Assembly (NCBI RefSeq): GCF_009223885.1
Contig: NZ_CP045144.1
Location: 3,832,001 to 3,896,000, forward strand
DNA from: Ancylobacter sp. TS-1
GTDB taxonomy: Bacteria > Pseudomonadota > Alphaproteobacteria > Rhizobiales > Xanthobacteraceae
DNA: 64,000 nucleotides
Reading direction: 5' to 3'
The translations under genes and the position numbers were made by a program. Below are positions 23,297 to 41,015 of this stretch, one piece after another; the stretch's first letter is position 1; every line of letters starts with the position of its first letter. The notes below the pieces were generated by a model that saw only the letters and a program-made list of their open reading frames with translations, searched no databases and had not been told where the DNA came from.

Positions 23297-24510
23297 GTGG
23301 CAAAGATCAAAGTGGCAAACCCCGTCGTCGAGCTCGACGGGGACGAGATGACGCGCATCATCTGGGGGCTGATCAAGGACAAGCTGATCCACCCCTATCT
23401 CAACATCGATCTCGAATATTACGACCTCGGCGTCGAGAACCGCGACGCGACCGACGATCAGGTCACGGTGGATGCCGCGCACGCGATCAAGCGGGTGGGT
23501 GTGGGCATCAAATGCGCCACCATCACCCCCGATGCCGGCCGCGTTGAAGAATTCGGCCTCAAGAAGATGTGGCGCTCGCCGAACGGCACCATCCGCAACA
23601 TCCTCGGCGGCGTGATCTTCCGCGAGCCGATCATCTGCAAGAACGTACCGCGCCTCGTGCCCGGCTGGACGCAGCCGATCATCGTCGGCCGCCACGCCTT
23701 CGGCGACCAGTACCGCGCCACCGACTTCCTGTTCCCGGGCAAGGGCACGCTCTCGATCAAGTTCGTCGGCGACGACGGGCAGGTCATCGAGCACGAGGTC
23801 TACAAGGCCCCGGGCGCCGGCGTCGCCATGGCGATGTACAATCTCGACGAGGCGATCGTCGAATTCGCCCGCGCCTCGCTCAATTACGGCCTTGCCCGGC
23901 GCTATCCGGTCTACCTCTCCACCAAGGACACCATCCTCAAGCAGTATGACGGCCGCTTCCGCAGGATCTTCGAGGAGATCTATGCCAGCGAGTTCAAGGC
24001 CGAGTTCGAGAAGCACAAGATCTGGTACGAGCACCGGCTGATCGACGACATGGTGGCTTCGGCGCTGAAATGGTCGGGCGGCTATGTCTGGGCCTGCAAG
24101 AACTATGACGGCGACGTGCAGTCCGACATCGTGGCGCAGGGCTTCGGCTCGCTGGGTCTGATGACCTCGGTACTGATGACCCCGGACGGCCGCACGCTGG
24201 AATCGGAAGCGGCCCACGGCACGGTGACGCGCCACTATCGCGAGCACCAGAAGGGCAAGGAGACCTCGACCAACTCCATCGCCTCGATCTTCGCCTGGAC
24301 ACGCGGCCTCGCCCATCGCGCCAAGCTCGACGACAATGCCGACCTCGCCGCCTTTGCGAGCACGCTGGAGAAGGTGTGCGTCGACACGGTGGAGGGCGGC
24401 GACATGACCAAGGACCTCGACTCCTCGTGGGCCCGGACCAGAAATGGCTGTCGACCACCGGCTTCATCGACCGGATCGACCAGAATCTGAAGCTGGCAAT
24501 GGCGGGCTGA
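23297..24510 (+). CDS. icd: NADP-dependent isocitrate dehydrogenase, frame broken near the 3' end
   Basis: TCA-cycle enzyme converting isocitrate to 2-oxoglutarate, of the dimeric eukaryote-like type of about 405 aa used by alphaproteobacteria. It starts at GTG 23297 (AGGAG seven nt upstream) with [20 protein letters not shown]. The blocks LDKMTKD-like end (GGDMTKDL), [20 protein letters not shown] and [20 protein letters not shown] are intact. After GDMTKDL, around 24419-24426, the frame shifts and the first frame ends at 24490 with a nonsense tail. The other frame carries the canonical C-terminus ([14 protein letters not shown], then [14 protein letters not shown]) to the stop at 24508-24510. 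One missing base explains it: GACTCCTC has 8 nt where 9 are expected for Ala-Leu-Leu. Confidence 0.9.
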
Positions 24511-24540
24511 TCGCCTCCTGATCGCCTCGCATGGATGGAG

Positions 24541-24574
24541 ACGGGCGGGGCGGCGGCGGGCCGCGCCCGCCCGT
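24541..24574 (+). terminator. Hairpin after icd
   Basis: ACGGGCGGG and CCCGCCCGT pair perfectly at the base of a GC-rich hairpin with inner pairing, followed by TTGCGTT. It lies 30 nt after the restored icd stop, as a likely terminator. Confidence 0.55.
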
Positions 24575-24653
24575 TTGCGTTCCGACGGCCTGCCGCGCCG
24601 CCTCCCACCCCCGGTTCGGGCGTCACGCCCTTGCGCCCCGGTCCGCGATCTGG

Positions 24654-24667
24654 TTTGTTATAACAAA
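24654..24667. promoter_or_regulatory. Palindromic operator before the GntR gene
   Basis: TTTGTTATAACAAA is a perfect 14-bp palindrome ending 32 nt before the GntR start codon. Its core TGTTATAACA recurs at 25446-25455 before the dehydratase operon. A-T symmetric sites of this type are typical of FCD-domain GntR repressors. Confidence 0.65.
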
Positions 24668-24699
24668 TAGCGGTCGCGGAATCGGAAAGGCCCGGGTGC

Positions 24700-25389
24700 A
24701 TGAAGCTGCAGCAACTCTTTCAGGAGCCGTTGCACGAACAGGCCTATGCCGCACTGCGGGAAGCCTTGCGGACCGGGCGTTTCAAGCCCGGACAGGCGAT
24801 GACGATCCGCGGGCTCGGCAAGGATCTGGGCATCTCGGCGACACCCGTGCGCGAGGCGTTGCAGCGCCTCATCGCCTCGCAGGCGCTGCAATTGCAGCCC
24901 AACCGCACCATCATCGTGCCGGTGCTCACCCGCCGCCGTTTCCAGGAGATCACCAAGGTCCGGGTGCGGCTGGAAGGGCTGGCGGCGCTCGAGGCGGCGC
25001 CGCGCCTCACCGGCCGCGACATCGCCGAGCTGGAGGCCCTGTCGGCGGCGATGACGGCGGATATCCGCGACCGGCGCTTCAACGACTATCTCGCTAATAA
25101 TGAGCGGTTCCATTTCCGCATCTATGAGGCATCGGGCATGGGTTTCCTGCGCGAACTCATTGATCTTGCTTGGCTTCAGACGGGGCCTTGGCTGAACGCG
25201 CTGGCTAGCGAGGGGCGCTTCCACGCCATCGCCAACACCGTTCACGATGAAATCATCGGCCTTGCCTCGGCCGGCGACGCCAATGGCGTGAGCGAAGCGG
25301 TGCAACGCGATATTCTCGAAGCCGCGCGCCTGCTCATGCGCTTCCTCGACGACGAGGAGGACATCCGCCCGCTGGCCGTGGCCGGCTAG
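24700..25389 (+). CDS. GntR-family regulator (FCD type) of the dehydratase operon
   Basis: 229-aa GntR regulator. The N-terminal winged helix includes ALREALRTGRFKPGQAMTIR and LGISATPVREALQRLIASQ, and the C-terminal FCD domain is helical with metal/ligand residues of the usual kind (NERFHFRIYEAS and an H near NTVHDEIIG). Length is normal. It sits directly upstream of and co-oriented with the ABC/diol dehydratase operon. The same palindrome core precedes both, so it most likely represses itself and that operon until a pathway ligand binds. The ligand is unknown. Confidence 0.9.
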   Translation: MKLQQLFQEPLHEQAYAALREALRTGRFKPGQAMTIRGLGKDLGISATPVREALQRLIASQALQLQPNRTIIVPVLTRRRFQEITKVRVRLEGLAALEAAPRLTGRDIAELEALSAAMTADIRDRRFNDYLANNERFHFRIYEASGMGFLRELIDLAWLQTGPWLNALASEGRFHAIANTVHDEIIGLASAGDANGVSEAVQRDILEAARLLMRFLDDEEDIRPLAVAG

Positions 25390-25418
25390 GGCTAGACCGT
25401 CGACGGGCGATTTTTCGC

Positions 25419-25462
25419 TTGCCACGGCCGCTACGTGCCCAATATTGTTATAACATATAACA
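25419..25462 (+). promoter_or_regulatory. Promoter and GntR operator of the diol dehydratase operon
   Basis: TTGCCA (25419-25424) and TATTGT (25443-25448, 18-nt spacer) form a possible sigma-70 promoter. The palindrome TGTTATAACA at 25446-25455 overlaps the -10, and an extra ATAACA half-site ends at 25462. This geometry fits repression by the upstream GntR protein. Confidence 0.55.
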
Positions 25463-25484
25463 TCGATCGCAGCGGAGACCCAGG

Positions 25485-26309
25485 ATGGTCGGCGAGTCTC
25501 GATGGGTGCAGTGGGCATCCCACCTCATTCTGGGCAGCGCCTCGGCGATGGTGCTGCTGCCGCTGGTGTGGGTCCTGCGCACCTCCTTCGCCGACAAGGT
25601 GGTGGCCTATCAGATGCCGCCCGACCTGTTCTTCGCGCCCACGCTCGACAATTACCGCGACGTGCTGCTGCGCTTCGATTTCGGCTCCTTCTTCCTGAAC
25701 AGCCTGATCGTCGCGCTGCTCACCACCGCCATCGCCCTGCTGCTCGGCGCGCTCGCCGCCTATGCGATCGACCGCTTCCGCACCGGCGGGGCGGTGATGC
25801 CGCTGGCCATACTCGCCACGCAGATGATGCCGCCCATCGTCCTCGTCATTCCGTTTTTTCTCATCTTCAAGCGGCTCGGCCTCGCCGACAGCCATGCCGG
25901 CCTCGTCATCACCTACCTGACCTTCAACCTGCCCTATGTGGTCTGGCTGCTGGTGAGCTTCTTCAAGCGGGTGCCGCGCGAGCTTGACGAGGCGGCGCTG
26001 ATCGACGGTGCCGGCCCGTTCACCGTGTTCTGGCGCATCGTGCTGCCGGCGGCGCTGCCGGGCATCGGCGCGGCGGCGGTGCTCTCCTTCGTGCTGTGCT
26101 GGAACGAGTTCCTGTTCGCCCTGATGCTCACCGGACAGCAGACCAAGACGCTGCCGGTCGCCATTTCCAGCCTGGTGACGCAACAGGGCACGGCCATCGG
26201 CGCGGTGTGCGCCTCCACCATGCTCGCCATCGCGCCGATGGTGCTCATCTACTTCGCGATCCGAAAGCTTCTCGTTGCCGGGCTCAGCCTCGGCGCGGTG
26301 AAGGGCTGA
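25485..26309 (+). CDS. Carbohydrate/polyol ABC permease (MalG type)
   Basis: 274-aa inner-membrane permease with six helices and the EAA-type coupling loop PRELDEAALIDGAGPFTVFW, then the conserved VLCWNEFLFALML. It belongs to the MalG/SmoG branch of sugar and polyol importers. The gene order is unusual: this inner permease comes first, before the binding protein, and the MalF-type partner follows at 27745. It has its own operator-controlled promoter, so it is the first gene of the operon running to 35656. Confidence 0.9.
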   Translation: MVGESRWVQWASHLILGSASAMVLLPLVWVLRTSFADKVVAYQMPPDLFFAPTLDNYRDVLLRFDFGSFFLNSLIVALLTTAIALLLGALAAYAIDRFRTGGAVMPLAILATQMMPPIVLVIPFFLIFKRLGLADSHAGLVITYLTFNLPYVVWLLVSFFKRVPRELDEAALIDGAGPFTVFWRIVLPAALPGIGAAAVLSFVLCWNEFLFALMLTGQQTKTLPVAISSLVTQQGTAIGAVCASTMLAIAPMVLIYFAIRKLLVAGLSLGAVKG

Positions 26310-26366
26310 CGAACAAGCCCGACCGGACAAACCGGCCTTCCAGCCTCACGACAAAAGGGAACTGTC

Positions 26367-27665
26367 ATGACACGCGTGAAATTCGGCACCAGTGCCGCCG
26401 TGCTCGCCTTTCTCGCCGCCGCCTCGCCGGCCTTTGCCGCCAGCGACGTCTGCAAGGGCTCCGACATCAACATCCTGATGGAGACGGTGCCGGACACCGA
26501 GGCGCTCCAGGCCATCAAGGGCGATTTCGAGAAGCAGTTCGGCGCCAAGGTCAACATCGAGGCGGTCAACTACTCGCTGATGCACGAGAAGCTGGTGCCC
26601 AGCCTGACCGCCCCCACCTCCAGCTACGACGTGCTGGTGGTCGACAGCTACTGGGTCGGCGAGTTCAAGACCGCCGGCTGGATCAGGGATCTGGACGCGT
26701 GGATCGCCCGCGACAAGATCGACACCAGCCTCTATTTCCCCGCCCTGATGGCGCTGAACGGCACGGTGCAGGGCAAGACCTACATGCTGCCCTTCTGGCA
26801 GTACGCGATGGGCATCCTCTACCGGAAGGACATCGTCGAGGACCCGACCTTCCAGGCGGCCTACAAGGAACAGTTCAAGCGCGACTGGCGGATTCCGGCC
26901 ACGCTGGAGGAGTTCGCCGAGGTCGTGAAGTGGTCCGGCAAGCAGAAGGACATGTACGGCATCGCCATGGCCGCCCAGCGCGCCGACCCGGTGGTGATGG
27001 AAGCCACCAACTACCTGTTCGCCGAGGGCGGCGACTTCTACGACCGCAAGACGTGGAAGCCGACCATGGACACGCCGGAGGCGGCCAAGGCCGTCACCAT
27101 CTATGCGGACCTCATCAACAGCGCCGCCCAGCCGGGCGCGCTCGGCGCCAATTTCGACGACGTCGCCAACACGCTGAAGCAGGGCAAGGCGATCTTCGCG
27201 ATCAGCTACCTGTTCCTGTTCCCGACGCTGGAAGACCCCAAGGACTCCACCGTCGTCGGCAAGATGGCCTTCGCCCCCGTGCCCGGCAAGGACAGCTTCC
27301 TCGGTGCCTGGGGCTGGGCCGTGCCGACCAACGCCAAGAACCCGGACTGCTCTTGGGAATTCCTGAAGTGGGTCGAGTCCAAGGACGTCGCCTACAAGCG
27401 CGCCCTTGCCGGCGGCCAGCCGACGCAGATGTGGATCTACGAGGACGCCGACTTCATCAAGAAGTGGCCGGCCATGTCGCAGGTCGGCAACGCGCTCGCG
27501 CACTCGAAGGGCCTGCCGATCATGTCGCGCTCCACCCAGCTGGTGGAGACCTTCGCCGAGGTGATGGGCTCGGTCCTGGCCAACAACGTGCCTCCGGCGA
27601 CGGCGCTGGCGGATTCGCAGGACAAGTTCGGCCGTCTCGTGAAGGGCGATCCGCTGCTCAAGTGA
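26367..27665 (+). CDS. Polyol/sugar ABC substrate-binding protein (family 1)
   Basis: 432-aa periplasmic binding protein. The signal peptide is MTRVKFGTSAAVLAFLAAAS plus AFA, with cleavage before ASDVCKG. The mature part has INILMETVPDTEALQAIK and LMHEKLVPSLTA, typical of sorbitol/mannitol-type (SmoE/MtlE-like) binding proteins. The second binding protein in the window (36685) has the same N-terminal architecture (MEDVPETQIIEKLLPEF), so they are paralogues with probably different ligands. A stem-loop after the gene may raise its expression above the downstream genes. The ligand is presumably the substrate or precursor of the diol dehydratase. Confidence 0.9.
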   Translation: MTRVKFGTSAAVLAFLAAASPAFAASDVCKGSDINILMETVPDTEALQAIKGDFEKQFGAKVNIEAVNYSLMHEKLVPSLTAPTSSYDVLVVDSYWVGEFKTAGWIRDLDAWIARDKIDTSLYFPALMALNGTVQGKTYMLPFWQYAMGILYRKDIVEDPTFQAAYKEQFKRDWRIPATLEEFAEVVKWSGKQKDMYGIAMAAQRADPVVMEATNYLFAEGGDFYDRKTWKPTMDTPEAAKAVTIYADLINSAAQPGALGANFDDVANTLKQGKAIFAISYLFLFPTLEDPKDSTVVGKMAFAPVPGKDSFLGAWGWAVPTNAKNPDCSWEFLKWVESKDVAYKRALAGGQPTQMWIYEDADFIKKWPAMSQVGNALAHSKGLPIMSRSTQLVETFAEVMGSVLANNVPPATALADSQDKFGRLVKGDPLLK

Positions 27666-27689
27666 GCGGACCCTTCAGCGCGCCATCCC

Positions 27690-27714
27690 GCCCCGGGGGC
27701 CTGCCTCCCGGGGC
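27690..27714 (+). terminator. Intra-operon stem-loop after the binding-protein gene
   Basis: GCCCCGGG and CCCGGGGC enclose a 9-nt loop 24 nt after the stop. Stems in this position commonly stabilise the binding-protein mRNA or partly attenuate transcription into the permease gene. Confidence 0.5.
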
Positions 27715-27744
27715 CCGTGCCTCACGACATCAGGGTCGCGACCG

Positions 27745-28635
27745 ATGACCACCGCCACGATGAGGGCCGGTTCCCCCGGCCGCCGCCGCAATCTCGCGCA
27801 GTACGTCTTCGTCGCTCCGGCGGTGATCGTGCTGGCGCTGGTTGTCGCCGCGCCCCTGCTGTACTCGATCTATCTGAGCTTCCAAGAATACATCATCACC
27901 TACGGCATGGGCGACTTCGCCGGCTTCGCCAATTATCTGGCGGTGCTGTCGGACGACTTCGCCCATGTGTCATGGGTGACGCTGAAGCTCACCGTGCTGT
28001 GCGTGGTCTTCGAGTTTGTCATCGCCTTCGGCCTCGCCTTGCTGCTCAACCAGCCGCATCTGCCGGGGCGCTCCTTCTACCTCATCGTGCTGATGATCCC
28101 GGTGCTGATGACGCCGGTGGCGGTCGCGCTGATGTTCCGGCTGATGTTCAACCCGAGCCTCGGCATCGTGAACTGGCTCATCAGCCTCGTCGGCATTCCG
28201 CCGCAGGGCTGGTTCGGCGACCCCCATCTGGCGCTCGCCACCGTCATCTTCGTCGACATCTGGCACGAGACCTCGCTGATGCTGCTCATGCTCTATGCCG
28301 GGCTCAAGGCGATGCCGAGCGAGCCGGTCGAGGCCGCGCGCATCGACGGCGCCAGCCGGCTCCAGATCCTGCGCTACGTGACGTGGCCGCTGATGAAGCC
28401 GATCATCATGGTCACGCTGATGATCCGCATGATCGCGGCGCTCAAGAGCTACGACCTCATCTACATGCTGACCCAGGGCGGCCCCGGCAAGGCGACGGAG
28501 ACCATCTCCTTCTATGCCTACCGCCTCGGCTTCCGCTTCCTCGACATCGGGCAGGCGGCCGCCGTCTCCTTCATCCTTCTGATCGTCGTCACCCTGCTGA
28601 CGCTGGTGCTGCTGCGCACCATGCGGGAGAACTGA
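27745..28635 (+). CDS. Carbohydrate/polyol ABC permease (MalF type)
   Basis: 296-aa inner-membrane permease with six helices. The coupling loop is PSEPVEAARIDGASRLQILR and the C-terminal region has YMLTQGGPGKATETISFYAY, the hallmark of MalF/SmoF-type subunits. It pairs with the permease at 25485. It ends one nt before the dehydratase start, which ties import directly to the catabolic enzyme. Confidence 0.91.
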   Translation: MTTATMRAGSPGRRRNLAQYVFVAPAVIVLALVVAAPLLYSIYLSFQEYIITYGMGDFAGFANYLAVLSDDFAHVSWVTLKLTVLCVVFEFVIAFGLALLLNQPHLPGRSFYLIVLMIPVLMTPVAVALMFRLMFNPSLGIVNWLISLVGIPPQGWFGDPHLALATVIFVDIWHETSLMLLMLYAGLKAMPSEPVEAARIDGASRLQILRYVTWPLMKPIIMVTLMIRMIAALKSYDLIYMLTQGGPGKATETISFYAYRLGFRFLDIGQAAAVSFILLIVVTLLTLVLLRTMREN

Positions 28636-28636
28636 G

Positions 28637-30943
28637 ATGAGCGACGCACGCAAGGACGGCGCGGCCCCGGCCAGCAACCGCTGGCGCCGTTTCGGCGAAT
28701 GGGATGCCCGCCCGCTGCGGCAGGACCTGTTCGCCGCCGAGAACCCGGAGGCGGGCTTCTCGGTCTTCCACAGCCCATACGATCCCGCGCCGTCGCTGAC
28801 CATCGAGGGCGGGCGCGTGAGCGTCATGGACGGCAAGGCCGCCGGCGATTTCGACATCATCGACGCCTTCATCGCCGCCCATCACATCGACCCGGAGATG
28901 GCCCCGGTCGCGATGGCGATGGACCCGGGCGCCATCGCCCGGAAGCTGGTCGATATCAACGTGCCCCGACAGGAACTTGAGGCGCTCGCCCGCGGTCTGA
29001 CGCCGGCGCGCCTCGCCGAGGTCGTGGGCCGGTTGTCCGCGCTTGAGATCACTTTCGCCTACGCGAAGATGCGCCAGCGCCAGAGCCCCGGCAATCAGGC
29101 CCACGTCACCAACGCCAAGGACGACCCGCTCCAGCTTGCCGCCGATTCCGCGACCGCCGTCGCGCTCGGCTTCGACGAGATCGAGACGACGATGCGGGTC
29201 GCCTCCAATGGCTGGGCCAACGCGCTCGCCTGCACGGTGGGCGCGGCGGTCGGGCGGGGAGGGGTGCTGTTCCAGTGCTCCATCGAGGAGGCGGAGGAGC
29301 TTCAGATCGGCCTCGCCGGGCTGGCCTCCTATGCCGAGACGGTGTCGGTCTACGGCACCGAACGCGCCTTCATCGACGGCGACGACACGCCTTGGTCGAA
29401 GGCGCTGCTGACCGCCGCCTATGCCTCGCGCGGCATCAAGGCGCGCTGCACCTCCGGCGCGGCGGCCGAACTCCTGATGGGCTTTCACGAACAGCGTTCG
29501 CTGCTCTACCTCGAAGCGCGCTGCCTGTGCCTCCAGCGCGCCATGGGCGTGCAGGGCACGCAGAATGGCGGCATCGACGGCGCCCCGCTCACCGCCTCCA
29601 TGGCGGGTGGCGTGCGCGAACTGATGGCGGAGAACCTCATCGCCGTCTGGCTCGGGTTGGAGTGCGCCTCCGGCAACGACACCCGCACCAGCGAATCCGA
29701 GATCCGCGTCGGCGCCAAGATCACGCCCTATCTGCTGGCCGGCTCGGACCTCATCTGCTCGGGCTTCGGCTCGATCAAGAAATACGACAACTCGTTCAAC
29801 CCCTCGCTCTTCAACGGTGAGGAGATCGAGGACTATCTCGTCCTCCAGCGCGACTTCCAGACCGATGGCGGGCTCACCCCCGTCGACGAGGATCAGGTGC
29901 TCGGCGTGCGCATGCACGCGGTGGAGGCGCTGGCCGACGTGCTGGACGAACTCGGTCTTGCCAAGGTCGGGCGGGAGCGGCTGCTGTCGGTGGTGTTCGC
30001 CTCCGGCTCGGAGGAGACGCAGAGCTACACCGCCGGCGAGGTGACGCCGATCAGCGCCGCCATCAAGGCGCGTGGCCTCACCGCGCTCGACGTGGTGCGG
30101 GCGCTGGCCAGGCGCGGCTACGCCGAGGAAGCGGAAAACCTCCTGCTGATGCTGCGCCAGCGCATTTCCGGCGACTATCTCCAGACCTCCGCTTTGGTGC
30201 GCGACGGGCGGGTGATGAGCGCCGTCAACGATCCCAACGACTATCGCGGCCCCGGAACCGGCTACCGCATGCCGCAGAAGCGCTGGCAGCAGGTGCAGGG
30301 CATCCGCAACGTGCTCACCCGCGAGCGCGTGCTGGCGGCGGAGAATGTCGCCGCCGATGCGGCGGGGGATGCCGACTGGCTGGTGCCCGCCGGCGTGGCG
30401 GCGAAGGGTGCCGACCCGCATGAGGTGGTGATCGGCGTCAGCCCCGCCTTTGCCCGCCAGCTGCACCAGACCACGGCCGGCCATGCGCTGGCGGACGTGG
30501 TGGCGGCCCTCGTTGGCGGCATCGAGGACGGCGGCGGCACGGCGCGGTTGGTGCGGATGGTGCACACCGCCGACACCTCCTTCCTCGGCCTCGCCGCCGC
30601 CCGGCTGTCGGGCTCGGGTTTCGGAATCGGCATTCAGGCCAAGGGCACGACGGTGCTGCACCAGGCCGACCGCATGCCGCACATGAACCTCGAACTGTTT
30701 TCCAACGCCCCCCTCGCCGGGCTCGACCATTATCGCGCGCTCGGCCGCAACGCCGCCCGCCACACCTTCGGCGAGGCGCCCGAGCCGGTGGTGGTGCCCA
30801 CCCATGGCGAAGCGCTGGGCGCGCGCTTCCATGTGCGGGTGGCGCTGCTCTACGCCATCGAGACCGGTCTCATCGAACCGACGGGCCACCCCATCGAACT
30901 CACCTACCACCCCGAAAAGCGTGCGCCGGAGGCTGCGCAATGA
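28637..30943 (+). CDS. B12-dependent diol/glycerol dehydratase, fused large and medium subunits
   Basis: 768-aa fusion. Residues to about 560 form the large subunit and about 595-755 the medium subunit (from EVVIGVSPAF through SGSGFGIGIQAKGTTVLHQ and MNLELFSNAPL). It aligns without gaps, offset 13, to Klebsiella oxytoca diol dehydratase as I recall it. The catalytic residues Q141, H143, E170, E221, Q296, D335 and S362 appear as Q154, H156, E183, E234, Q309, D348 and S375. Two substrate-pocket positions differ: S301 is Asp314 and Q336 is Thr349. The enzyme should use adenosylcobalamin to turn a vicinal diol (or related compound) into an aldehyde, but probably not propanediol. The stop overlaps the small-subunit ATG. 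No reactivase gene is nearby. Confidence 0.93.
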   Translation: MSDARKDGAAPASNRWRRFGEWDARPLRQDLFAAENPEAGFSVFHSPYDPAPSLTIEGGRVSVMDGKAAGDFDIIDAFIAAHHIDPEMAPVAMAMDPGAIARKLVDINVPRQELEALARGLTPARLAEVVGRLSALEITFAYAKMRQRQSPGNQAHVTNAKDDPLQLAADSATAVALGFDEIETTMRVASNGWANALACTVGAAVGRGGVLFQCSIEEAEELQIGLAGLASYAETVSVYGTERAFIDGDDTPWSKALLTAAYASRGIKARCTSGAAAELLMGFHEQRSLLYLEARCLCLQRAMGVQGTQNGGIDGAPLTASMAGGVRELMAENLIAVWLGLECASGNDTRTSESEIRVGAKITPYLLAGSDLICSGFGSIKKYDNSFNPSLFNGEEIEDYLVLQRDFQTDGGLTPVDEDQVLGVRMHAVEALADVLDELGLAKVGRERLLSVVFASGSEETQSYTAGEVTPISAAIKARGLTALDVVRALARRGYAEEAENLLLMLRQRISGDYLQTSALVRDGRVMSAVNDPNDYRGPGTGYRMPQKRWQQVQGIRNVLTRERVLAAENVAADAAGDADWLVPAGVAAKGADPHEVVIGVSPAFARQLHQTTAGHALADVVAALVGGIEDGGGTARLVRMVHTADTSFLGLAAARLSGSGFGIGIQAKGTTVLHQADRMPHMNLELFSNAPLAGLDHYRALGRNAARHTFGEAPEPVVVPTHGEALGARFHVRVALLYAIETGLIEPTGHPIELTYHPEKRAPEAAQ

Positions 30944-31371
30944 GTGCGAAACCCGTCAGCGACCTCGACCTATATCCCGTCTCGGAAAAGGCGCCCGAGC
31001 GGGTGAAGACCCCCACGGGCAAGCCGCTTTCCGCCCTCACGCTGGAGGCCGTGCTTTCCGGCGAGGTCGGCAATGAGGATATCGCCATCACGCCGGAGGC
31101 ACTGCTGCTTCAGGCGCGCATCGCCCGCGCCGCCGGGCGCGCCACGCTGGCGGAGAATTTCGAGCGCGCGGCCGATCTCGTCCGCGTGCCGCAGGAACTG
31201 ATCCTCGACACCTATGAGCTGCTGCGGCCGGGCCGTGCCCGCGACGCGCAGCAGCTTCTCGACCGCGCGGCGCAGCTTCGCCGCGACTATGGCGCCGCGC
31301 GCGTCGCCGCCCTGATCGAGGAGGCCGCCGCCGTCTATACGCGCCGCGGCCTGTTCGTGAAGAGATACTGA
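30940..31371 (+). CDS. Diol dehydratase small subunit
   Basis: 143-aa gamma subunit of the B12-dependent dehydratase. Family features seen: GKPLSALTLEAVLSGEVGNED near the start, LQARIARAAGRATLAENFER in the middle, and the C-terminal VAALIEEAAAVYTRRGL. Its ATG overlaps the stop of the fused large/medium gene by 4 nt, so subunits are made in fixed ratio. Together they would form an (alpha-beta fused, gamma)2 complex in the cytosol. It is followed after 14 nt by the ABC ATPase gene. Confidence 0.92.
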   Translation: MSAKPVSDLDLYPVSEKAPERVKTPTGKPLSALTLEAVLSGEVGNEDIAITPEALLLQARIARAAGRATLAENFERAADLVRVPQELILDTYELLRPGRARDAQQLLDRAAQLRRDYGAARVAALIEEAAAVYTRRGLFVKRY

Positions 31372-31385
31372 GCAGGAGCAAGGAC

Positions 31386-32474
31386 TTGGCAGGCGTTACA
31401 ATTCGGCAGGTCTCCAAGCATTTCGGGCCCGTGCGCGTGCTCGACGGGCTGGACCTCGCGATCGATGACGGGGAGTTCGTGGTGCTCGTCGGCCCGTCGG
31501 GCTGCGGCAAGACCACGCTTCTGCGCATGATCGCCGGCCTTGAATCGGTCTCCGGCGGCCAGATCATGATCGGCGAGCGGGACGTCACCTGGATGGCGCC
31601 CAAGGACCGCGACATCGCCATGGTGTTCCAGTCCTACGCGCTCTACCCGCATATGAGCGCGGCCGAGAACATGTCCTTCGGCCTCAAGCTCAACAAGACG
31701 CCCAAGCCCGAGATCGACGCGCGCGTGGCCGAGGCGGCCCGCATGCTGAAGATCGAGCATCTGCTGGAGCGCAAGCCGCGCGAGCTTTCCGGCGGCCAGC
31801 GCCAGCGCGTGGCGATGGGACGCGCCATCGTGCGCCGCCCGGCGCTCTATCTGTTCGACGAGCCGCTCTCCAATCTCGACGCGCAGCTGCGCACCAGCAT
31901 GCGCACCGAGATCAAGCGCATGCACCTCGCCGAGAAGAAGACGGTCGTCTACGTCACCCACGACCAGATCGAGGCGCTCACCCTCGCCGACCGCATCGTC
32001 GCCATGAACAAGGGCGACATCCAGCAGATCGGCACCCCGGACGATCTTTATCGCCGCCCGGCCTCGGTGTTCGTCGCCTCCTTCATCGGCTCGCCGGCGA
32101 TGAGCTTCCTGTGCGGCACGCTGACGGCGGCCGGAGCGGTGGCGCTGGAAGGCGTTGGCACCGCCCTGATGCTTCCCCCCTCATGGGCCGGCGTCGCCGC
32201 CGCGTCGGGTTCGACGGTGCTGCTCGGCCTGCGGCCGGAAGCCTTTGTCTACGCGCCCGGCGATGAGGGGCGCTTCGGCTTCGACGTGCAGGTCAACGTC
32301 GTCGAGCCCTGCGGCGCCGAGGTCTATGTGGTCGGCGAGGTCGCCGGGCAGGAAGTCACCATCCGCTGCGCGCCCGGCCATGTGCCCCCGCTCGGCACGA
32401 CGGCCCGCTTCGCGGTCGATTTCGACGGCATCCACCTGTTCGATGCCGCCACCGAACGGAGCCTGCGGCCATGA
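31386..32474 (+). CDS. Polyol ABC transporter ATP-binding protein (UgpC/MalK type)
   Basis: 362-aa MalK-type ATPase. Walker A GPSGCGKTT is at residues 36-44, then MVFQSYALYPHM, signature LSGGQRQRV, Walker B YLFDEPLSNLD, and a C-terminal TOBE regulatory domain. TTG 31386 is the likely start (AGGAGCAAGGAC upstream), since MalK-type proteins begin at this point (AGVTIRQVSKHFG). It energises the permeases at 25485 and 27745. Its location after the dehydratase genes rather than beside the permeases shows that import and catabolism share one transcript. Confidence 0.93.
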   Translation: MAGVTIRQVSKHFGPVRVLDGLDLAIDDGEFVVLVGPSGCGKTTLLRMIAGLESVSGGQIMIGERDVTWMAPKDRDIAMVFQSYALYPHMSAAENMSFGLKLNKTPKPEIDARVAEAARMLKIEHLLERKPRELSGGQRQRVAMGRAIVRRPALYLFDEPLSNLDAQLRTSMRTEIKRMHLAEKKTVVYVTHDQIEALTLADRIVAMNKGDIQQIGTPDDLYRRPASVFVASFIGSPAMSFLCGTLTAAGAVALEGVGTALMLPPSWAGVAAASGSTVLLGLRPEAFVYAPGDEGRFGFDVQVNVVEPCGAEVYVVGEVAGQEVTIRCAPGHVPPLGTTARFAVDFDGIHLFDAATERSLRP

Positions 32475-33244
32475 TCCTCAAGGACCGCATCGCCATCGTC
32501 ACCGCCGCCGGCTCAGGGATAGGCCGGGCGGTGGCCATCGCCTTCGCGCGCGAGGGCGCGCTCGTCTACGCCACCGACCGCGACGGCGCCGCCGCCAGCG
32601 CGAGCGCCGAACTGGCCGGGAACGGCGCGCAGTCGCGCGCGCTCGACGTCGCCGATGCCGCCGCCATCGAGGTGCTGATCGCCGAGGTACAGGCCCTGCA
32701 CGGGCGGATCGACATCCTGCACAACCATGCCGGGCTCCAGGTCGCCGGCGGGCTGGAGGAGATCGACGGCGGCCAACTCGACCGCTCCTGGGCGATCAAC
32801 GTCCACGCCCAGTTCGCCGCCTGCCGGGCGGCGATGCCGATCATGAAGGCGCAGGGCGGCGGCGTCATCCTCAACACGGCGTCGAATGCCGGCGTGTTCC
32901 TCGACAAGGGCATGCTGGCCTACATCACCACCAAGTCGGCGGTCATCACCATGACCAAGCAGATCGCGCTCGACTATGCCCGCTTCGGCATAAGGGTGAA
33001 CGCCATCTGTCCGGGCTGGGTCGATACCGCCTTCAACGATCCCTACACCGCCCAGCTTGGCGGGCGCGGGGCGCTGGAGAAGGTGGTGTCGGGCATGGTG
33101 CCGATGGGGCGCTTCGGCCGGCCGGAGGAGATCGCCGAGGCGGCGGTGTTCCTGGTCTGCGACCGCTCCTCCTACATCACCGGCCATGCGCTGGTGATCG
33201 ATGGCGGCGAATGCCTGGCCGGCGGCGCCAACTCGACGCCGTGA
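32471..33244 (+). CDS. Short-chain dehydrogenase/reductase
   Basis: 257-aa classical SDR. Cofactor motif TAAGSGIG is at residues 11-18, and the catalytic residues are Ser138, Tyr151 and Lys155 (YITTK). The usual NNAG motif reads HNHAG. ATDRD after the second strand suggests NAD preference (acidic Asp after the beta-strand). It probably oxidises a secondary alcohol of the imported polyol or reduces the aldehyde or ketone made by the operon's other enzymes. It overlaps the ATPase stop by 4 nt. Confidence 0.9.
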   Translation: MILKDRIAIVTAAGSGIGRAVAIAFAREGALVYATDRDGAAASASAELAGNGAQSRALDVADAAAIEVLIAEVQALHGRIDILHNHAGLQVAGGLEEIDGGQLDRSWAINVHAQFAACRAAMPIMKAQGGGVILNTASNAGVFLDKGMLAYITTKSAVITMTKQIALDYARFGIRVNAICPGWVDTAFNDPYTAQLGGRGALEKVVSGMVPMGRFGRPEEIAEAAVFLVCDRSSYITGHALVIDGGECLAGGANSTP

Positions 33245-33276
33245 CCGTTGCCCCGCGTGCAGGTGTGAGTTTTCCG

Positions 33277-34335
33277 ATGTCCCACGTCCTGACGACCGCC
33301 CCGCGGGCGGATGCGCTCGCGACGCCGTCGCCCTCGCTTACCGCCGGCCGGATCGAGCGGATTCTCCGCGAGCAGTACGGGCTCGACGGCGAAGCGCGGC
33401 TGCTCACCTCCGAGCGGGACCAGAATTTCCATTTCGCCACGCCCGCCGGCGAGGCGCTGGTGATCAAGGTCACCAACCCGGCCGAGGACCGGCTGGTCAC
33501 CGATTTCCAGACCAGGGCGCTGCTGCACATCGAGGCGCGCGATCCCGCGCTTCCCGTTCCCTGTCTGCGCCGCACCCGCACGGGCGAGGCCGCCTTCGTG
33601 CTGGAAGAGGACGGCACGAGCATGGTGGTGCGCGCGCTGAGCTGGCTCGACGGCGTGCCGCTCTATCAGGTCGAGCGCACCGCCCGCCAGCGGCAGGAGC
33701 TGGGGGCGGCGCTGGCGCGCATGGGGCTGGCGCTGCGCGACTTCGGCCACCCGGCCGCCGGGCATTTCCTGCAATGGGACATCCAGCACGCCGCGAAGCT
33801 GCGCCCGCTGCTGGCGCATATCGAGGACCCGGCGCGGCGCGCGCTGGCGACCGAGTTCCTCGACCGCTTCGATGCCGAGGTGGCGCCCGTCCTGCCGCGC
33901 CTGCGCCGGCAGATCGTCCATAACGACCTCAACCCGTTCAACGTGCTGGTCGCCGCGCACGACCACGACCGGGTGACCGGCATCTTCGATTTCGGCGATA
34001 TGGTCGAGACGGCGCTCGTCAACGACGTCGCCGTCGCCTGCAGCTACCAGCTCGCGGCCGGCGACGACCCGCTGGCTGGCGTCGCCGACTTCGCCGCCGC
34101 CTATTGCCGGGTGCGCCCGCTCGACGAGACCGAGCTGAGCCTGCTGTTCGATCTCACCGCCGCGCGCATGCTGACCACGGTCGCGATCACCAACTGGCGC
34201 GCGCTGCGCTACCCCGAGAACCGCGCCTACATCCTGCGCAACAGCCCTTCCGCCTGGGACGGGCTGGAACGCTTCGCCGTCATCGGCCCCGCGCGCGCCC
34301 GCGCGCGGCTCGTGGCCGCCTGCCTGGGGAAATAG
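33277..34335 (+). CDS. APH/hydroxylysine-kinase-like small-molecule kinase
   Basis: 352-aa kinase of the aminoglycoside phosphotransferase/choline kinase fold. Seen: the ATP-lysine block EALVIKVTNP (Lys64), the catalytic Brenner motif VHNDLNPFNV (His215, Asp217, Asn222) and the metal-binding IFDFGDM (Asp238). Family members phosphorylate hydroxyls of small molecules including choline, homoserine and hydroxylysine. Directly followed by a class III PLP enzyme, it resembles the kinase plus phospho-lyase pairs that degrade amino alcohols. ATG 33277 is chosen; GTG 33241, overlapping the SDR stop, would add 12 residues. Resistance to aminoglycosides is unlikely in this setting. Confidence 0.85.
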   Translation: MSHVLTTAPRADALATPSPSLTAGRIERILREQYGLDGEARLLTSERDQNFHFATPAGEALVIKVTNPAEDRLVTDFQTRALLHIEARDPALPVPCLRRTRTGEAAFVLEEDGTSMVVRALSWLDGVPLYQVERTARQRQELGAALARMGLALRDFGHPAAGHFLQWDIQHAAKLRPLLAHIEDPARRALATEFLDRFDAEVAPVLPRLRRQIVHNDLNPFNVLVAAHDHDRVTGIFDFGDMVETALVNDVAVACSYQLAAGDDPLAGVADFAAAYCRVRPLDETELSLLFDLTAARMLTTVAITNWRALRYPENRAYILRNSPSAWDGLERFAVIGPARARARLVAACLGK

Positions 34336-34339
34336 CCAT

Positions 34340-35656
34340 ATGTCGATGGTCAATGCGTTCGATCCCGAAGCTGCCGCCGCCCTGCCGGAGGCGGAGAAGG
34401 ATCTGATCCGCCGCCGCGAGAAGCTGCTCGGCCCGGCCTACCGGCTGTTCTACCAGCAGCCGGTCCATATCGTGCGCGGCGAGGGCGTGTGGCTCTACGA
34501 TCCCGCCGGCAACGCCTATCTCGACGTCTACAACAACGTCGCCTCGGTCGGGCACTGCCACCCCCGGGTGGTCGAGGCGCTGGCGCGGCAGGCGTCGATC
34601 CTCAACACGCATACGCGCTACCTGCACGAGACCATCCTCGACTATGCCGAGCGGCTGCTGGCCAAGGTGCCGGCCGGGCTCGGCCACATCATGTTCACCT
34701 GCACCGGTTCGGAGGCGAACGACCTCGCGCTGCGCATCACCCGCGCCTATACCGGCCGGCAGGGCATGATCGTCACGCGCCTCGCCTATCACGGCCTCAC
34801 CAGCGCGGTGTCCGAGCTTTCGCCCTCTCTGGGCGACTATGTGCAGCCCGGCCCGCATGTGCGCTTCGTCGCGCCGCCGGACGGCTATCGCGGCGCCGCC
34901 GAAGTGGGCGCCGCCTTCGCCGCCGGGGTGCGCGCGGCCATCGCCGACATGCGCGCGCAGGGCATCGAGCCGGCAGCGCTGCTGGTCGACACCATCTTCT
35001 CCTCCGACGGCGTGTTCGCCGATCCGCCCGGCTTCCTCGAGGAGGCGGTCGCGGCGATCCGCGAGGCGGGCGGCCTGTTCATCGCCGACGAGGTGCAGCC
35101 CGGCTTCGGACGCGTCGGGCCGCAGTTCTGGGGCTTCGCCCGCCACGGGCTGGTGCCCGACATGGTGACGGTCGGCAAGCCGATGGGCAACGGCCACCCC
35201 ATGGCGGGGGTCATCATGAAGCCGCATCTGGTCGAGGAATTCGGCCGCAAGGCGCGCTATTTCAACACCTTCGGCGGCAATCCGGTGGCCTGCGCGGTCG
35301 GCCTCGCCGTGCTCGACGTGATGGAGGGCGAGGGCCTGCCGGAGCGCGCGCGCGAGGTGGGCGACTATATGCGCGCGGGGCTGCGCGATCTCGCCGGCCG
35401 CTATGAGGCGATCGGCGACGTGCGCGGGGCGGGGCAGTTCACCGGGCTGGAACTGGTGGAGGACCGCGCCACCAGGGCGCCGGATGCCGCCCTCACCAGC
35501 CGCATCGTCAACGGCCTGCGCGAGCGCCGCGTGCTGATCAGCGCCACCGGGCCGGGCGCCAACATCCTGAAGATCCGCCCGCCGCTCGCCTTCGCCCGCG
35601 AGCATGCCGATATCTTCCTCGATCGCTTCGCCGACGTGCTCAAGGCGAATGCCTGA
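34340..35656 (+). CDS. Class III PLP-dependent aminotransferase or phospho-lyase
   Basis: 438-aa fold-type I PLP enzyme. Seen: TCTGSEANDLALRI (phosphate-binding), IADEVQPGFGRVG with Asp250 for the pyridine nitrogen, and Lys280 in VTVGKPMGNG as the PLP Schiff base. The class includes omega-aminotransferases and the ethanolamine-phosphate and phosphohydroxylysine phospho-lyases. A kinase gene 4 nt upstream makes phospho-lyase activity (loss of phosphate and ammonia to give an aldehyde) an attractive reading, but ordinary transamination cannot be excluded from sequence. It is the last gene of the operon. Confidence 0.87.
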   Translation: MSMVNAFDPEAAAALPEAEKDLIRRREKLLGPAYRLFYQQPVHIVRGEGVWLYDPAGNAYLDVYNNVASVGHCHPRVVEALARQASILNTHTRYLHETILDYAERLLAKVPAGLGHIMFTCTGSEANDLALRITRAYTGRQGMIVTRLAYHGLTSAVSELSPSLGDYVQPGPHVRFVAPPDGYRGAAEVGAAFAAGVRAAIADMRAQGIEPAALLVDTIFSSDGVFADPPGFLEEAVAAIREAGGLFIADEVQPGFGRVGPQFWGFARHGLVPDMVTVGKPMGNGHPMAGVIMKPHLVEEFGRKARYFNTFGGNPVACAVGLAVLDVMEGEGLPERAREVGDYMRAGLRDLAGRYEAIGDVRGAGQFTGLELVEDRATRAPDAALTSRIVNGLRERRVLISATGPGANILKIRPPLAFAREHADIFLDRFADVLKANA

Positions 35657-35687
35657 CAACGCCGCCGGGGGGGGGCGTCGCCGCCGG

Positions 35688-36566
35688 CTAGCGGCGCCGC
35701 TCCAGCGTGGCGAAGAACAGCACGGTCAGGCCCAGCACGATCAGCAGCAGCACGAAGGACGCCGCCGCGCCCTCGTTGAGGTGCAGCCCGAGAAAGGCGC
35801 GGCGATAGGCGAAGAAGCTCAGCACCTCGGTGGAGGTGCCCGGTCCGCCCTTGGTCAGGATGTAGGGCAGGTCATAGGTGCGGAATTCGTTGATGAGCTG
35901 GATGATGACCGCGATGGCGGCGACCGGCCGCAGCATCGGCAGGGTGATGTACCAGAACTGCTGGAGGGGCGACGCCCCGTCGACCTCGGCCGCCTCATAG
36001 GGGTCGCGCGGCAGCGAGGCGAGGCCGGCGGCGAGGATCAGCACGACGAAGGAGGTCTGCTGCCAGATGTCGATCCCGGCCATGGTCCACAGCGCGAGGT
36101 CGGCATTGCCGAGCCAGTCGACGCGCGGCAGGCCGACCGCTTCCAGCGTGTGGTTGACGATGCCGAGATTGGGCTGGAGCAGCATGCGCCAGATCAGCGC
36201 CACGCTCACCGGCGACATCGCCATGGGAATGGTGAGCACGGCGAAATAGACCGGCTTCATCGTCACGGTGCGGTTGATCATGAGCGCCACCGCCAGCCCG
36301 ATGACGAACTCGCCGGCCACCGTGACGAGGGAATATTTGATGGTCAGCCACAGCGCGCCCCAGAACAGGGGATCGTTCATCATCGCCGCGTAGTTGGCGA
36401 AGCCGACGAACGGGGTGAGGGAGGGGCGCAGCAAGGTGAGCGAGGAGACCGAGATCACCGCCGCATAGACCAGCGGAAAGCCCATGACGATCGCCAGCAT
36501 CAAGAGGCCCGGCGCCGCGAAGGCCCAGCCGTTCCGCCAGTCCCGATCCATGAGGGCCGCGCGCAT
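35688..36566 (-). CDS. Carbohydrate/polyol ABC permease (MalF type), second system
   Basis: 292-aa inner-membrane permease with six helices, the coupling loop PRDPYEAAEVDGASPLQQFW and the MalF-type ending LTKGGPGTSTEVLSFFAY. ATG 36566 is preferred; the frame runs further upstream without a good ribosome site. It is a paralogue of the permease at 27745. It is the last gene of the minus-strand cluster and converges with the class III PLP gene. Confidence 0.9.
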   Translation of the reverse strand: MRAALMDRDWRNGWAFAAPGLLMLAIVMGFPLVYAAVISVSSLTLLRPSLTPFVGFANYAAMMNDPLFWGALWLTIKYSLVTVAGEFVIGLAVALMINRTVTMKPVYFAVLTIPMAMSPVSVALIWRMLLQPNLGIVNHTLEAVGLPRVDWLGNADLALWTMAGIDIWQQTSFVVLILAAGLASLPRDPYEAAEVDGASPLQQFWYITLPMLRPVAAIAVIIQLINEFRTYDLPYILTKGGPGTSTEVLSFFAYRRAFLGLHLNEGAAASFVLLLIVLGLTVLFFATLERRR

Positions 36567-36684
36567 CGTGTCGTTCCGTCTCGTTCGCCTGCCGGCGGTC
36601 GGTGAAAGGGATGGAGCCCCGCCCGGAGGCGGGGCTCCGACGCTCACACGTTGAGGGGTCGGGCGTGAGCGTTTCTCGCTCGCC

Positions 36685-37959
36685 TTACTTGGCGAGGAGC
36701 TGGGTCAGGCCGTCGGCCGCCGCCTTGAGGGCGTCCTCGGGCTTGGCCTGTCCGCCGGCCGCCAGCGAGAGCTGGGCGCCGAGCACGTCCTCGTACTGCG
36801 CGGAATAGGCGAAGATCGGGAACGACTTGCCCGAGGCGACGACATCCAGCGCGGTCTTGTAGAAGGGATACTTCGCCAGCACCGCCGGGTCGGTGTAGAC
36901 GTCCGAGCGCACCGGCGCGTGGCCTTCCATGGCGCGGGCGACCGAGATCTTCTTGCCCTGCACCCATTCGATGAACTTCCAGGCTGCGGCCTTGGATTCA
37001 TCCGAGGTGTTCTTCGGGATGCCCCAGCCCCAACCGCCGCTTTCGCCATGGCCGCCCGGCATCACCGACAGCGCCAGCTTGCCGGCGACCTTCGGGCACT
37101 TCTCCTTGTTGTCGAGCTGCGGCAGCATCCACCAGTAGGTGACCATGCTGAAGGCGTCGCCGGCGCACATCAGGCGCATCGTGTCGTCGAGCGTGGCGGA
37201 GAGGGCGCCCTGCTGCGCGCCGTTCTGCACGTTGTCGGCGTAGAGCTTGAGCGCGGTGAGGCCCTCGGGGCTGTTCAGCGCCACCTTGCGGCCGGCATCG
37301 AGATAGGCGCCGCCGGCGGAGAACAGGTAGTTGGAGAATTCCATCGCGTTCGGGTCGCCGCGCTGGCCCTGCATGGCCGCGCCGACCACGCCGCCGCCCG
37401 CCTTGAAGAACTTCGACAGCTCGACATATTCGGCGAGCGTCTTCGGCAGAGCGAGTTCCTTGCCGGTCTTGGCCTTGTAGGCCGCCTTGACCTTGGCGTC
37501 TTCCAGCAGGTCCGTGCGGTAGATCAGGCCCATCGAGTAATTGTACATGGGCAGGATCGGCGTCGCGTCCTTGGTCTGGCCGAGCAGGTCCAGCATGGAC
37601 GGGATGAAGGGCTTCAGGTCGAAGCCGGACTTGGCGATATAGGGGTTGAGGTCTTCCAGCCAGCCGGCGGTGGGGAACTCGCCGGCCCACAGGAAGTCGA
37701 CCTCGAGCAGGTTGTAGTAGCTCTCCGGCGAGACGAGCTGGGCGACCAGCTTGTCGTGCATGTCGCCATAGCCGATCTTCTCGAACTCGACCCTGATGCC
37801 GGTCTCCTTCTCGAATTCCGGCAGCAGCTTCTCGATGATCTGGGTCTCCGGCACGTCCTCCATCAGGGCGCGCAGGGTGACGGACTGGGCATAGGCGGGG
37901 GCGGCGGCCAGCAGCGTGGCGCCGAGGAGGGCCGCCTTCAGGCTACACTTCAACTGCAT
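36685..37959 (-). CDS. Polyol/sugar ABC substrate-binding protein, second system
   Basis: 424-aa periplasmic family-1 binding protein. The signal peptide begins MQLKCSLKAALLGATLLAAA and cleaves after AYA, before QSVTLRALMED. GYGDMHDKLVAQLVS, PAIL-like loop DATPILPMYNYSMGLIYRTD and GGWGWGIPKN are typical of sorbitol/mannitol-type binding proteins. AGGAGAACGAG precedes the ATG. It is homologous over its length to the binding protein at 26367. It sits between the two permease genes of its system, a different order from the first system. Confidence 0.9.
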   Translation of the reverse strand: MQLKCSLKAALLGATLLAAAPAYAQSVTLRALMEDVPETQIIEKLLPEFEKETGIRVEFEKIGYGDMHDKLVAQLVSPESYYNLLEVDFLWAGEFPTAGWLEDLNPYIAKSGFDLKPFIPSMLDLLGQTKDATPILPMYNYSMGLIYRTDLLEDAKVKAAYKAKTGKELALPKTLAEYVELSKFFKAGGGVVGAAMQGQRGDPNAMEFSNYLFSAGGAYLDAGRKVALNSPEGLTALKLYADNVQNGAQQGALSATLDDTMRLMCAGDAFSMVTYWWMLPQLDNKEKCPKVAGKLALSVMPGGHGESGGWGWGIPKNTSDESKAAAWKFIEWVQGKKISVARAMEGHAPVRSDVYTDPAVLAKYPFYKTALDVVASGKSFPIFAYSAQYEDVLGAQLSLAAGGQAKPEDALKAAADGLTQLLAK

Positions 37960-38043
37960 CTCGTTCTCCTGTTCCTCTGGTTCGGGCATCGCCCGACGGC
38001 GCACCCGTTCGGTCGTTCGCACCCATCGGGCGCGGCGGCGGCG

Positions 38044-38841: not shown

Positions 38842-38860
38842 GCCGTTTCCTCCTCGGGGC

Positions 38861-40003
<1,143 letters not shown>

Positions 40004-40110
40004 AGATATTCCCTGGGTCTTTCCTGCGGCTCCCGGCCGTGCTCTCCCGCGCTGCGCAGCTGGGAGTGTCGGCGGGCAGGGTCGTAAACAAACAAGTTCG
40101 AACGTAATGC

Positions 40111-40140
40111 GAAAATACGAACGCCGGCATCCGCCGGCGT
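40111..40140 (-). terminator. Terminator after the SDR gene
   Basis: On the minus strand, ACGCCGGC and GCCGGCGT form a perfect 8-bp stem with a 4-nt loop, followed by TCGTATTTTC, starting 7 nt after the SDR stop. It may separate the SDR from the ABC genes or partly attenuate. Confidence 0.6.
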
Positions 40141-40146
40141 CGAGCC

Positions 40147-40947: not shown

Positions 40948-40973
40948 CTGTGCAACTCCTCTGTTGGGAGTCG

Positions 40974-41001
40974 ACTTTATCCAAACATCATCACACATCA
41001 A
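40974..41001 (-). promoter_or_regulatory. Putative SDR promoter
   Basis: On the minus strand TTGATG (41001-40996), 16 nt, then TAAAGT (40979-40974) resembles a sigma-70 promoter upstream of the SDR ribosome site. Confidence 0.4.
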
Positions 41002-41015
41002 GCGGAAATGTATGT

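Follow-up and report, generated by a model that had tools for sequence, protein, structure and literature searches.

A stretch of 64,000 nucleotides from Ancylobacter sp. TS-1 (contig NZ_CP045144.1, positions 3,832,001 to 3,896,000; called the window below, with positions counted from its first letter) carries nine genes, all on the + strand between 25485 and 35656, in which a sugar-type ABC importer is joined with a coenzyme B12-dependent diol dehydratase, a short-chain dehydrogenase/reductase (SDR), an APH-fold kinase and a class III pyridoxal phosphate (PLP) enzyme. We read them as a single catabolic operon controlled by a GntR regulator and free of a bacterial microcompartment (BMC) shell, in which two separable modules would make the same type of aldehyde, and we give this reading a probability of about 0.5. 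The host is a one-contig genome of 3.96 Mb (G000). The features on which the argument turns are these:

24656..24665, no strand: operator-like palindrome TGTTATAACA, exact, upstream of gntR (palindrome search)
24700..25389, + strand: GntR/FCD transcriptional regulator (PF00392 6.9e-15, PF07729 1.3e-18)
25419..25446, + strand: promoter-like site abutting the second operator copy (consensus match only)
25446..25455, no strand: operator-like palindrome TGTTATAACA ahead of permB, with which the operon begins (it precedes permB in 7/7 loci with the full gene set, type A below)
25485..26309, + strand: CUT1 ABC permease, permB (PF00528 2.7e-21)
26367..27665, + strand: CUT1 solute-binding protein, SBP (SBP_bac_1 8e-29)
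27745..28635, + strand: CUT1 ABC permease, permA (PF00528 9.9e-18)
28637..30943, + strand: fused large and medium subunits of B12-dependent diol dehydratase, LM (PF02286 Dehydratase_LU 1.4e-207, PF02288 Dehydratase_MU 3.3e-23)
29576..29578, + strand: codon of pocket residue Asp314, Ser302 in Klebsiella glycerol dehydratase (alignment)
29681..29683, + strand: codon of pocket residue Thr349, Gln337 in Klebsiella glycerol dehydratase (alignment)
30940..31371, + strand: diol dehydratase small subunit, S (PF02287 Dehydratase_SU 4.9e-42)
31386..32474, + strand: UgpC-like ABC ATPase (NF008653, 473.7 bits against a cut-off of 432)
32471..33244, + strand: SDR oxidoreductase (PF13561 adh_short_C2 1.2e-55; YxxxK at residue 151)
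33277..34335, + strand: APH-fold small-molecule kinase (PF01636 2.6e-24; motifs HND....N and DFGD)
34340..35656, + strand: class III PLP enzyme, probable amino-alcohol-phosphate phospho-lyase (PF00202 Aminotran_3 7.9e-73)

The intergenic gaps run from -4 to 79 bp (permB-57-SBP-79-permA-1-LM-(-4)-S-14-ATP-(-4)-SDR-32-APH-4-PLP), so that the first-pass annotation, which had described nine genes on one strand with tiny gaps or overlaps, was right in this respect, and its naming of importer, fused diol dehydratase, SDR, APH-fold kinase and class III PLP enzyme is borne out by Pfam matches well over cut-off. It drew the unit too narrowly: gntR and the two operator-like copies lie outside its limits and, to judge from the upstream sequences, belong to the unit with the nine genes. 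LM is a single protein of 768 aa carrying both the large and the medium domains, and the S gene overlaps it by 4 bp. The binding protein, two permeases and UgpC/MalK-type ATPase make up what is defined as a CUT1 sugar/polyol ABC importer, as which they are predicted to act. The binding protein itself is of polyol type by re-ranking of a PDB fold search, among whose entries 5iai is presumably ribitol-binding and 4rya hexitol-binding; identity of its relatives runs to 57%, with the next step down at 48% (120 listed of 250). Shell genes (PF00936) are found neither among the nine genes nor elsewhere in the host genome.

How widely is such a gene set shared? Relatives of the dehydratase were collected from genomes taken one per species; the best 80 of at least 570 confirmed ones were used, and the counts lean to close relatives. 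With two plasmids and the window they make 83 loci, of which the 54 of at least 20 kb were counted and the 29 shorter ones left out. Genes in these loci were detected at thresholds set by ourselves ("SDR" standing for the two types sought) and called by our own codon-usage script, which gave no calls for L041 and L090. Conserved clusters with the same gene set, which the first-pass annotation had proposed to look for, do exist: seven loci including the window (type A: the window, L016, L019, L025, L028, L095 and L096). The same nine genes stand in the same order in Ancylobacter koreensis (L016), a Parvibaculaceae metagenome-assembled genome (L019), Rhizobium vallis (L025) and Shinella lacus (L028), and annotation gives the same order on plasmids of Agrobacterium cucumeris (L095) and Shinella zoogloeoides (L096), where the L096 binding-protein gene is annotated only in part and was not registered whole by the locus search. 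The kinases of L016, L019, L025 and L028 are 91%, 63%, 48% and 46% identical to that of the window (L095 and L096 being outside this alignment), and the closest named dehydratases among the matches listed come from Ancylobacter. On these comparisons, the shared nine-gene set is more than chance. Among the 54 long loci, which are dominated by alphaproteobacteria, the kinase is found in 29, the PLP enzyme in 27, the SDR in 42, and both kinase and PLP enzyme in 23, some with and some without shell genes. None of the three is found in seven control loci with unfused dehydratases (six genomes of one family). Class III PLP genes of this type number only 1-6 per genome in the 12 genomes tested, and all six congeners without the dehydratase have kept one PLP gene (51-53% identity).

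Other arrangements of the same parts exist. In a Bradyrhizobium locus (type B, L020), kinase, PLP enzyme, LM, S and SDR go with another ABC importer and an amidase. Type C, found in Hyphomicrobium, Mesorhizobium and others with varying completeness, has LM, S, an isochorismatase-like hydrolase, an SDR, an APH kinase and a class III PLP enzyme, and its transporter is an amino-acid permease or a PotABCD-like importer. The hydrolase follows S in many of these loci (L062:12692-13387 and relatives; its probe matched in 36 of the 83). In type D (L021, L023, L024, L026 and L027) there are importer, LM, S and SDR, and neither kinase nor PLP enzyme was found within the stretch, the rest of these genomes not being searched. 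In type E, four Ancylobacter loci (L015, L017, L018 and L031) carry an LM about 90% identical to that of the window, with S, near a glycerol kinase, an FAA hydrolase lying on the opposite side; in L015, the type E locus tested, GlpK and GlpD exceed their NCBIfam cut-offs; GlpD follows, as does an ABC importer for whose binding protein no family match was obtained, and an 80-aa protein of no assigned family precedes. The BMC_H probe matched in 12 of the 83 loci (type C with shell proteins): L022, L035, L043, L045, L056, L057, L058, L059, L072, L074, L080 and L094. Part of these twelve also have an RMM-like kinase or SDR and a class III PLP enzyme, and they are possible RMM2-like microcompartments in alphaproteobacteria. 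PF00936 is absent from four other type A genomes (G455, G457, G462 and G465) and present on another contig in the type B genome (G458).

The kinase and PLP enzyme form a module of their own. The best solved relatives of the PLP enzyme are a bacterial phospholyase (5g4i, 1.6e-117) and ethanolamine-phosphate phospho-lyase (6tor, 1.1e-110), with transaminases over 50 orders of magnitude behind in E-value, and the protein has Lys280 within GKPMGNGHP and a YNNVxxVGH stretch. With a sequence nearer to phospho-lyases than to transaminases and the PLP lysine in place, it is predicted to release ammonia and phosphate, which agrees with the earlier proposal of a phospho-lyase beside a kinase. The kinase matches the N-terminal part (1.3e-84) and the PLP enzyme the C-terminal part of the fused family PRK06148, each below the full-length cut-off. 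At 1e-50, the kinase is found at 23 places in 16 genomes from a draw of 385 genomes of the class, the window being one of them; 13 of these places lie in frames of at least 785 aa and are probably fusions. At all nine places with a frame shorter than 450 aa (L153-L161) a PLP enzyme, 43-72% identical to that of the window, adjoins the kinase, and no dehydratase lies in the stretch, although one of the nine genomes (G068) has one elsewhere (L162); no obvious catabolic neighbours were seen among the genes scanned around these pairs. A second locus of the host (L122, G000:C1:2999001-3016000) has a PotABCD-like importer, a DeoR-like regulator, the kinase and a class III PLP enzyme together with a proline-iminopeptidase-family hydrolase and an FAA hydrolase, and no dehydratase. 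In the congener G018, a genome without the dehydratase, L126 likewise has a PotABCD-like importer, kinase and PLP enzyme, plus an isochorismatase-like hydrolase. Thus, as far as gene content tells, the kinase and PLP module exists without the dehydratase module, and type D is the converse at locus level. The SDR gene comes directly after S in L020 and in all five type D loci except L021, where it precedes LM; because it accompanies the dehydratase genes in this way, the SDR probably acts on the diol/ketone or the aldehyde.

The dehydratase module was compared in alignments of 95 fused rows (88 distinct) and 10 unfused rows, from which G502, with its dehydratase in five fragments, was left out. 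Residues for catalysis and K+ binding are kept in LM (Q154, H156, E183, E234, Q309, D348 and S375); across the fused family, Q142 and D336 in Klebsiella numbering are found in 94/95 with one gap, and the other five positions in 95/95. In Klebsiella glycerol dehydratase, K+ is bound by Gln142, Glu171, Glu222, Gln297 and Ser363 (PMC7674605). With all three subunit domains and these residues, LM and S have the structural hallmarks of a B12 diol/glycerol dehydratase and are predicted to convert a 1,2-diol to an aldehyde. The pocket is another matter. The position of Klebsiella Ser302 is Asp in 94 of the 95 fused rows (one gap; 87/88 distinct) and Ser in 10/10 unfused; at that of Gln337, 92/95 fused rows have Ala, Thr, Cys, Ser or Val (two Gln, one gap) and 10/10 unfused rows have Gln. 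Further changes in the fused family are Met374 to Ser/Thr/Ala, Leu296 to Thr/Val and Cys303 to Gly, while Phe362 has no diagnostic value, as it varies among the unfused as well (4 Phe, 6 Ser). In diol dehydratase, Ser301 (302 in the Klebsiella plasmid protein) faces the C3 hydroxyl of glycerol in an inactivating pose; S301A and Q336A slow inactivation by glycerol and lower activity, inactivation with 1,2-propanediol not being slower, and for an alpha-beta fusion, slower inactivation in lysate has been reported (PMC7674605). Since the pocket is more polar and probably wider, the substrate probably carries a hydroxylated R group, of at least glycerol size, and not the methyl group found in 1,2-propanediol.

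Position 337 goes with gene context: Thr in 5/5 type A rows aligned, 6/6 of type A/B and 4/5 of type D, Ala in 33/34 of type C and 11/12 with shell genes, and Cys in 4/4 of type E (34 rows of this table are without assigned type). This link is partly shared descent. Within Ancylobacter, nine columns, one of them 337, separate three operon-type from 11 glycerol-side LMs, seven rows being placed by the FAA-hydrolase gene only and L007 by permA only. A tree of LM (39 fused and 2 unfused rows) separates fused from unfused with full support and puts most fused rows in two clades, one mainly with CUT1 importers and the other mainly with amine-type importers; exceptions are L022 (shell genes, PotD-like) in the CUT1 clade and L090 (CUT1-like) in the amine-type clade. 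The glycerol-side LMs nest among the operon-type LMs of the genus.

Reactivase (PF08841) over cut-off was found in 0/14 and 0/29 genomes with fused dehydratases, 39 distinct ones since the two sets overlap by four, judged by identical dehydratase sequences; the host is among the 14, and G454-G479 are without completeness figures. Two matches to the reactivase (DDR) below cut-off (about 9e-4) are in two Ruegeria genomes. PF08841 is also absent from three of three congeners without LM and from the two type A plasmid records, and present in 4/4 genomes or records with unfused enzymes. By its fusion, the absence of DDR and the changed pocket, the LM of the window falls into the fused reactivase-less lineage. 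CbiC, a marker of B12 synthesis, is in 6/6 genomes tested, host included. It is to be noted that the absence of reactivase in Mesorhizobium, Mycobacterium and Hyphomicrobium and the altered active site are already in print (Martins-Pinheiro 2016, PMC4777399).

The operator-like sequence speaks for a single unit. TGTTATAACA came from comparing the regions upstream of the operon in the seven type A loci, and it also precedes gntR in the window and L016. The window of 64 kb has no copies but those at 24656 and 25446, the chance expectation being 0.08 even with one mismatch, and the 11-base form TTGTTATAACA has two places only in the whole 3.96 Mb genome, both at this operon (three rows in the search, two of them both strands of one place). 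In 129 loci, many of them short stretches, TGTTATAACA matched in nine, that is, six other type A members and three stretches cut from the window; it is missing from the type B locus L020, although a related GntR is present there. A GntR gene stands at the operon in 7/7 type A loci: the four Rhizobiaceae loci have it downstream, the other three (the window, L016 and L019) upstream. Such a pattern would look like that of a self-regulated repressor with a single target operon, and GntR control is putative. Only one promoter-like place was found in 24450-35800 (two overlapping readings; 0.7 expected), and the five terminator-like sites there are at chance level (4.3 expected). We infer a single transcript controlled by GntR.

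The operon is not the first of its kind, a claim that we rejected in view of the RMM2 precedent. The first-pass annotation knew of no pathway combining a B12 dehydratase with kinase and PLP enzyme and a polyol importer, which is too strong: RMM2/AUM loci of Mycobacterium and Rhodococcus pair a diol dehydratase with an aminotransferase-like PLP enzyme, an APH phosphotransferase, an SDR and a GntR regulator (Axen 2014, Ravcheev 2019). Those loci have a GabP-like permease where the operon has a sugar-type ABC importer of polyol type. The operon also differs in having no aldehyde dehydrogenase, a host without PF00936 shell gene, and an SDR and a kinase not close to the solved enzymes nearest to RMM-like loci. 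The operon kinase has no PDB match at 1e-3 (6ef6 being the best match of a five-sequence profile, 5.7e-6) and the SDR none at 1e-45, whereas in L062, the sole type C relative tested, the kinase matches 6ef6 at 4.5e-86 and the SDR 6ci8 at 1e-85. We take 6ef6 to be the aminopropanol kinase and 6ci8/6ci9 the aminopropanol dehydrogenase of the M. smegmatis RMM, which the MCPdb text did not confirm. Mallette and Kimber reportedly worked on RMM-type microcompartment loci in 2018. Because it differs in shell, SDR and kinase, the operon, which resembles RMM2 in its predicted logic, is not filed as RMM2. The BMC of RMM2 loci was judged probably not to use the diol dehydratase, with bifunctional use raised as an alternative (Axen 2014, PMC4207490), an aminoacetone-utilisation (Aut) pathway has been proposed (Ravcheev 2019, PMC6620236), and the part of a BMC catalogue available to us mentions RMM without a match for "diol dehydratase" (PMC8217296). 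Mesorhizobium, Mycobacterium and Hyphomicrobium have a fused glycerol dehydratase that goes without a reactivase (Liu 2010, cited in PMC4777399). It shares with LM the large and medium fusion, the absence of a reactivation factor and an altered active site, but LM stands in an operon devoted to polyol import that also encodes kinase and phospho-lyase; the available text of PMC4777399 has no match for "aminotransferase", "ABC" or "phosphotransferase". Phospho-lyases for ethanolamine phosphate and phosphohydroxylysine likewise adjoin APH-fold kinases, yet in the operon a B12 dehydratase and a polyol-type importer come with this pair. PDU and dha regulons of Salmonella and Klebsiella share the dehydratase family, while the nine genes here include no reactivase, shell or other Pdu enzymes and the pocket differs. 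Within the weak scope of open-licence papers, no description of an operon of this kind was found.

What would the operon do? Dehydration of a diol and elimination from an amino-alcohol phosphate give the same kind of product, R-CH2-CHO. The importer would bring in a hydroxylated, polyol-type compound; LM and S with coenzyme B12 would turn a 1,2-diol R-CHOH-CH2OH into R-CH2-CHO, the SDR interconverting alcohol and carbonyl around this step, and the kinase would make the O-phosphate of a vicinal amino alcohol R-CHOH-CH2NH2, from which the phospho-lyase would release R-CH2-CHO, ammonia and phosphate. The substrates, the common product and the direction of the SDR are our inference. With a single operator and importer and two separable modules that each form an aldehyde, the simplest reading is a pathway of two entries, for a matching diol and amino alcohol. 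Several observations weigh against it. Neither kinase nor PLP enzyme of the types sought is in 21 of the 54 long loci, and no aldehyde dehydrogenase gene is among the operon genes. The PLP genes of the seven type A loci fall into two clades, one nearer to the free-standing kinase and PLP pairs, which may mean separate recruitment or replacement of the module; their dehydratases are not one clade in the LM tree either, and a common origin of all seven is not what the two trees show. In addition, Arg at Klebsiella position 338 (Arg350 in the window), present in 86/88 distinct fused sequences, could neutralise the pocket Asp314. A more specific version of the two entries is tentative, with the odds clearly against it: a B12 dehydratase of new specificity, with its pocket Asp, wider site and no known reactivase needed, would turn a polyol into a 2-deoxy-aldose-type aldehyde, and kinase and phospho-lyase would give the same aldehyde from the matching 1-amino-polyol.

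The first-pass annotation, whose observation is confirmed and whose interpretation is partly supported, had named as a possible substrate an amino-polyol, or a polyol giving an amino alcohol. Such a compound might be degraded along a linear pathway in which kinase and phospho-lyase deaminate one end and dehydratase and SDR process the rest. The genes under one operator-like site and the polyol-type binding protein agree with this, and the pocket Asp could bind an ammonium group, though we rejected Asp314 as proof of such a substrate since Arg350 may pair with it; dehydratase and SDR without kinase and PLP enzyme, and the converse pair without dehydratase, occur in other loci, which argues for parallel entries to one aldehyde type, and a linear path seems unlikely. 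It is rather improbable that the operon salvages head groups, with an inactivation-resistant glycerol dehydratase beside an ethanolamine kinase and phospho-lyase and an imported glycerol-ethanolamine conjugate cleaved elsewhere. The relative 6tor, the UgpC-like ATPase, an orthologous LM (about 90% identical) that neighbours glycerol kinase in the four type E loci of Ancylobacter, and the change of pocket positions reported to affect glycerol inactivation (PMC7674605) would suit it, but the operon has no phosphodiesterase, and the glycerol context may be derived, as the glycerol-side LMs nest among operon-type ones; for this reason glycerol was not accepted as substrate on those four loci alone and is kept within this alternative. 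Could the operon instead run RMM2 chemistry without a shell, from 1,2-propanediol and 1-amino-2-propanol to propionaldehyde? Its four enzyme classes are those of RMM2 and the L062 kinase and SDR match 6ef6 and 6ci8, but the operon's own kinase and SDR do not at the thresholds given above, the importer is sugar-type rather than amino-acid-type, and the changed pocket residues near substrate C3 argue against 1,2-propanediol; this alternative is quite unlikely. Most characterised class III enzymes are transaminases (PMC8154272), and the PLP enzyme might be an ordinary one, with the kinase acting on an unrelated alcohol and the genes grouped by habitat, not pathway; with two phospho-lyases as best matches by that margin in E-value, and kinase and PLP enzyme adjoining in 9/9 stretches chosen by the kinase alone, we regard this as highly improbable.

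A second polyol-type cluster lies next door (window 35688-44994), with a CUT1 importer and an SDR on the - strand and a DeoR regulator, a BtpA/SgcQ protein, a xylulokinase-like FGGY kinase (under the XylB cut-off) and a HAD phosphatase on the + strand. By annotation, S. zoogloeoides (L096) has a similar set beside its operon, and A. koreensis (L016) and S. lacus (L028) have parts of one there.

How fused dehydratases without reactivase are reactivated and what advantage they bring were left open in the available text of PMC4777399. A compact and conserved gene set with its own regulator, present in isolates of Ancylobacter, Shinella, Rhizobium and Agrobacterium, is a place to test fused reactivase-less B12 dehydratases, and it bears on Axen's question of whether the diol dehydratase and the amino-alcohol enzymes are both in use in RMM2.

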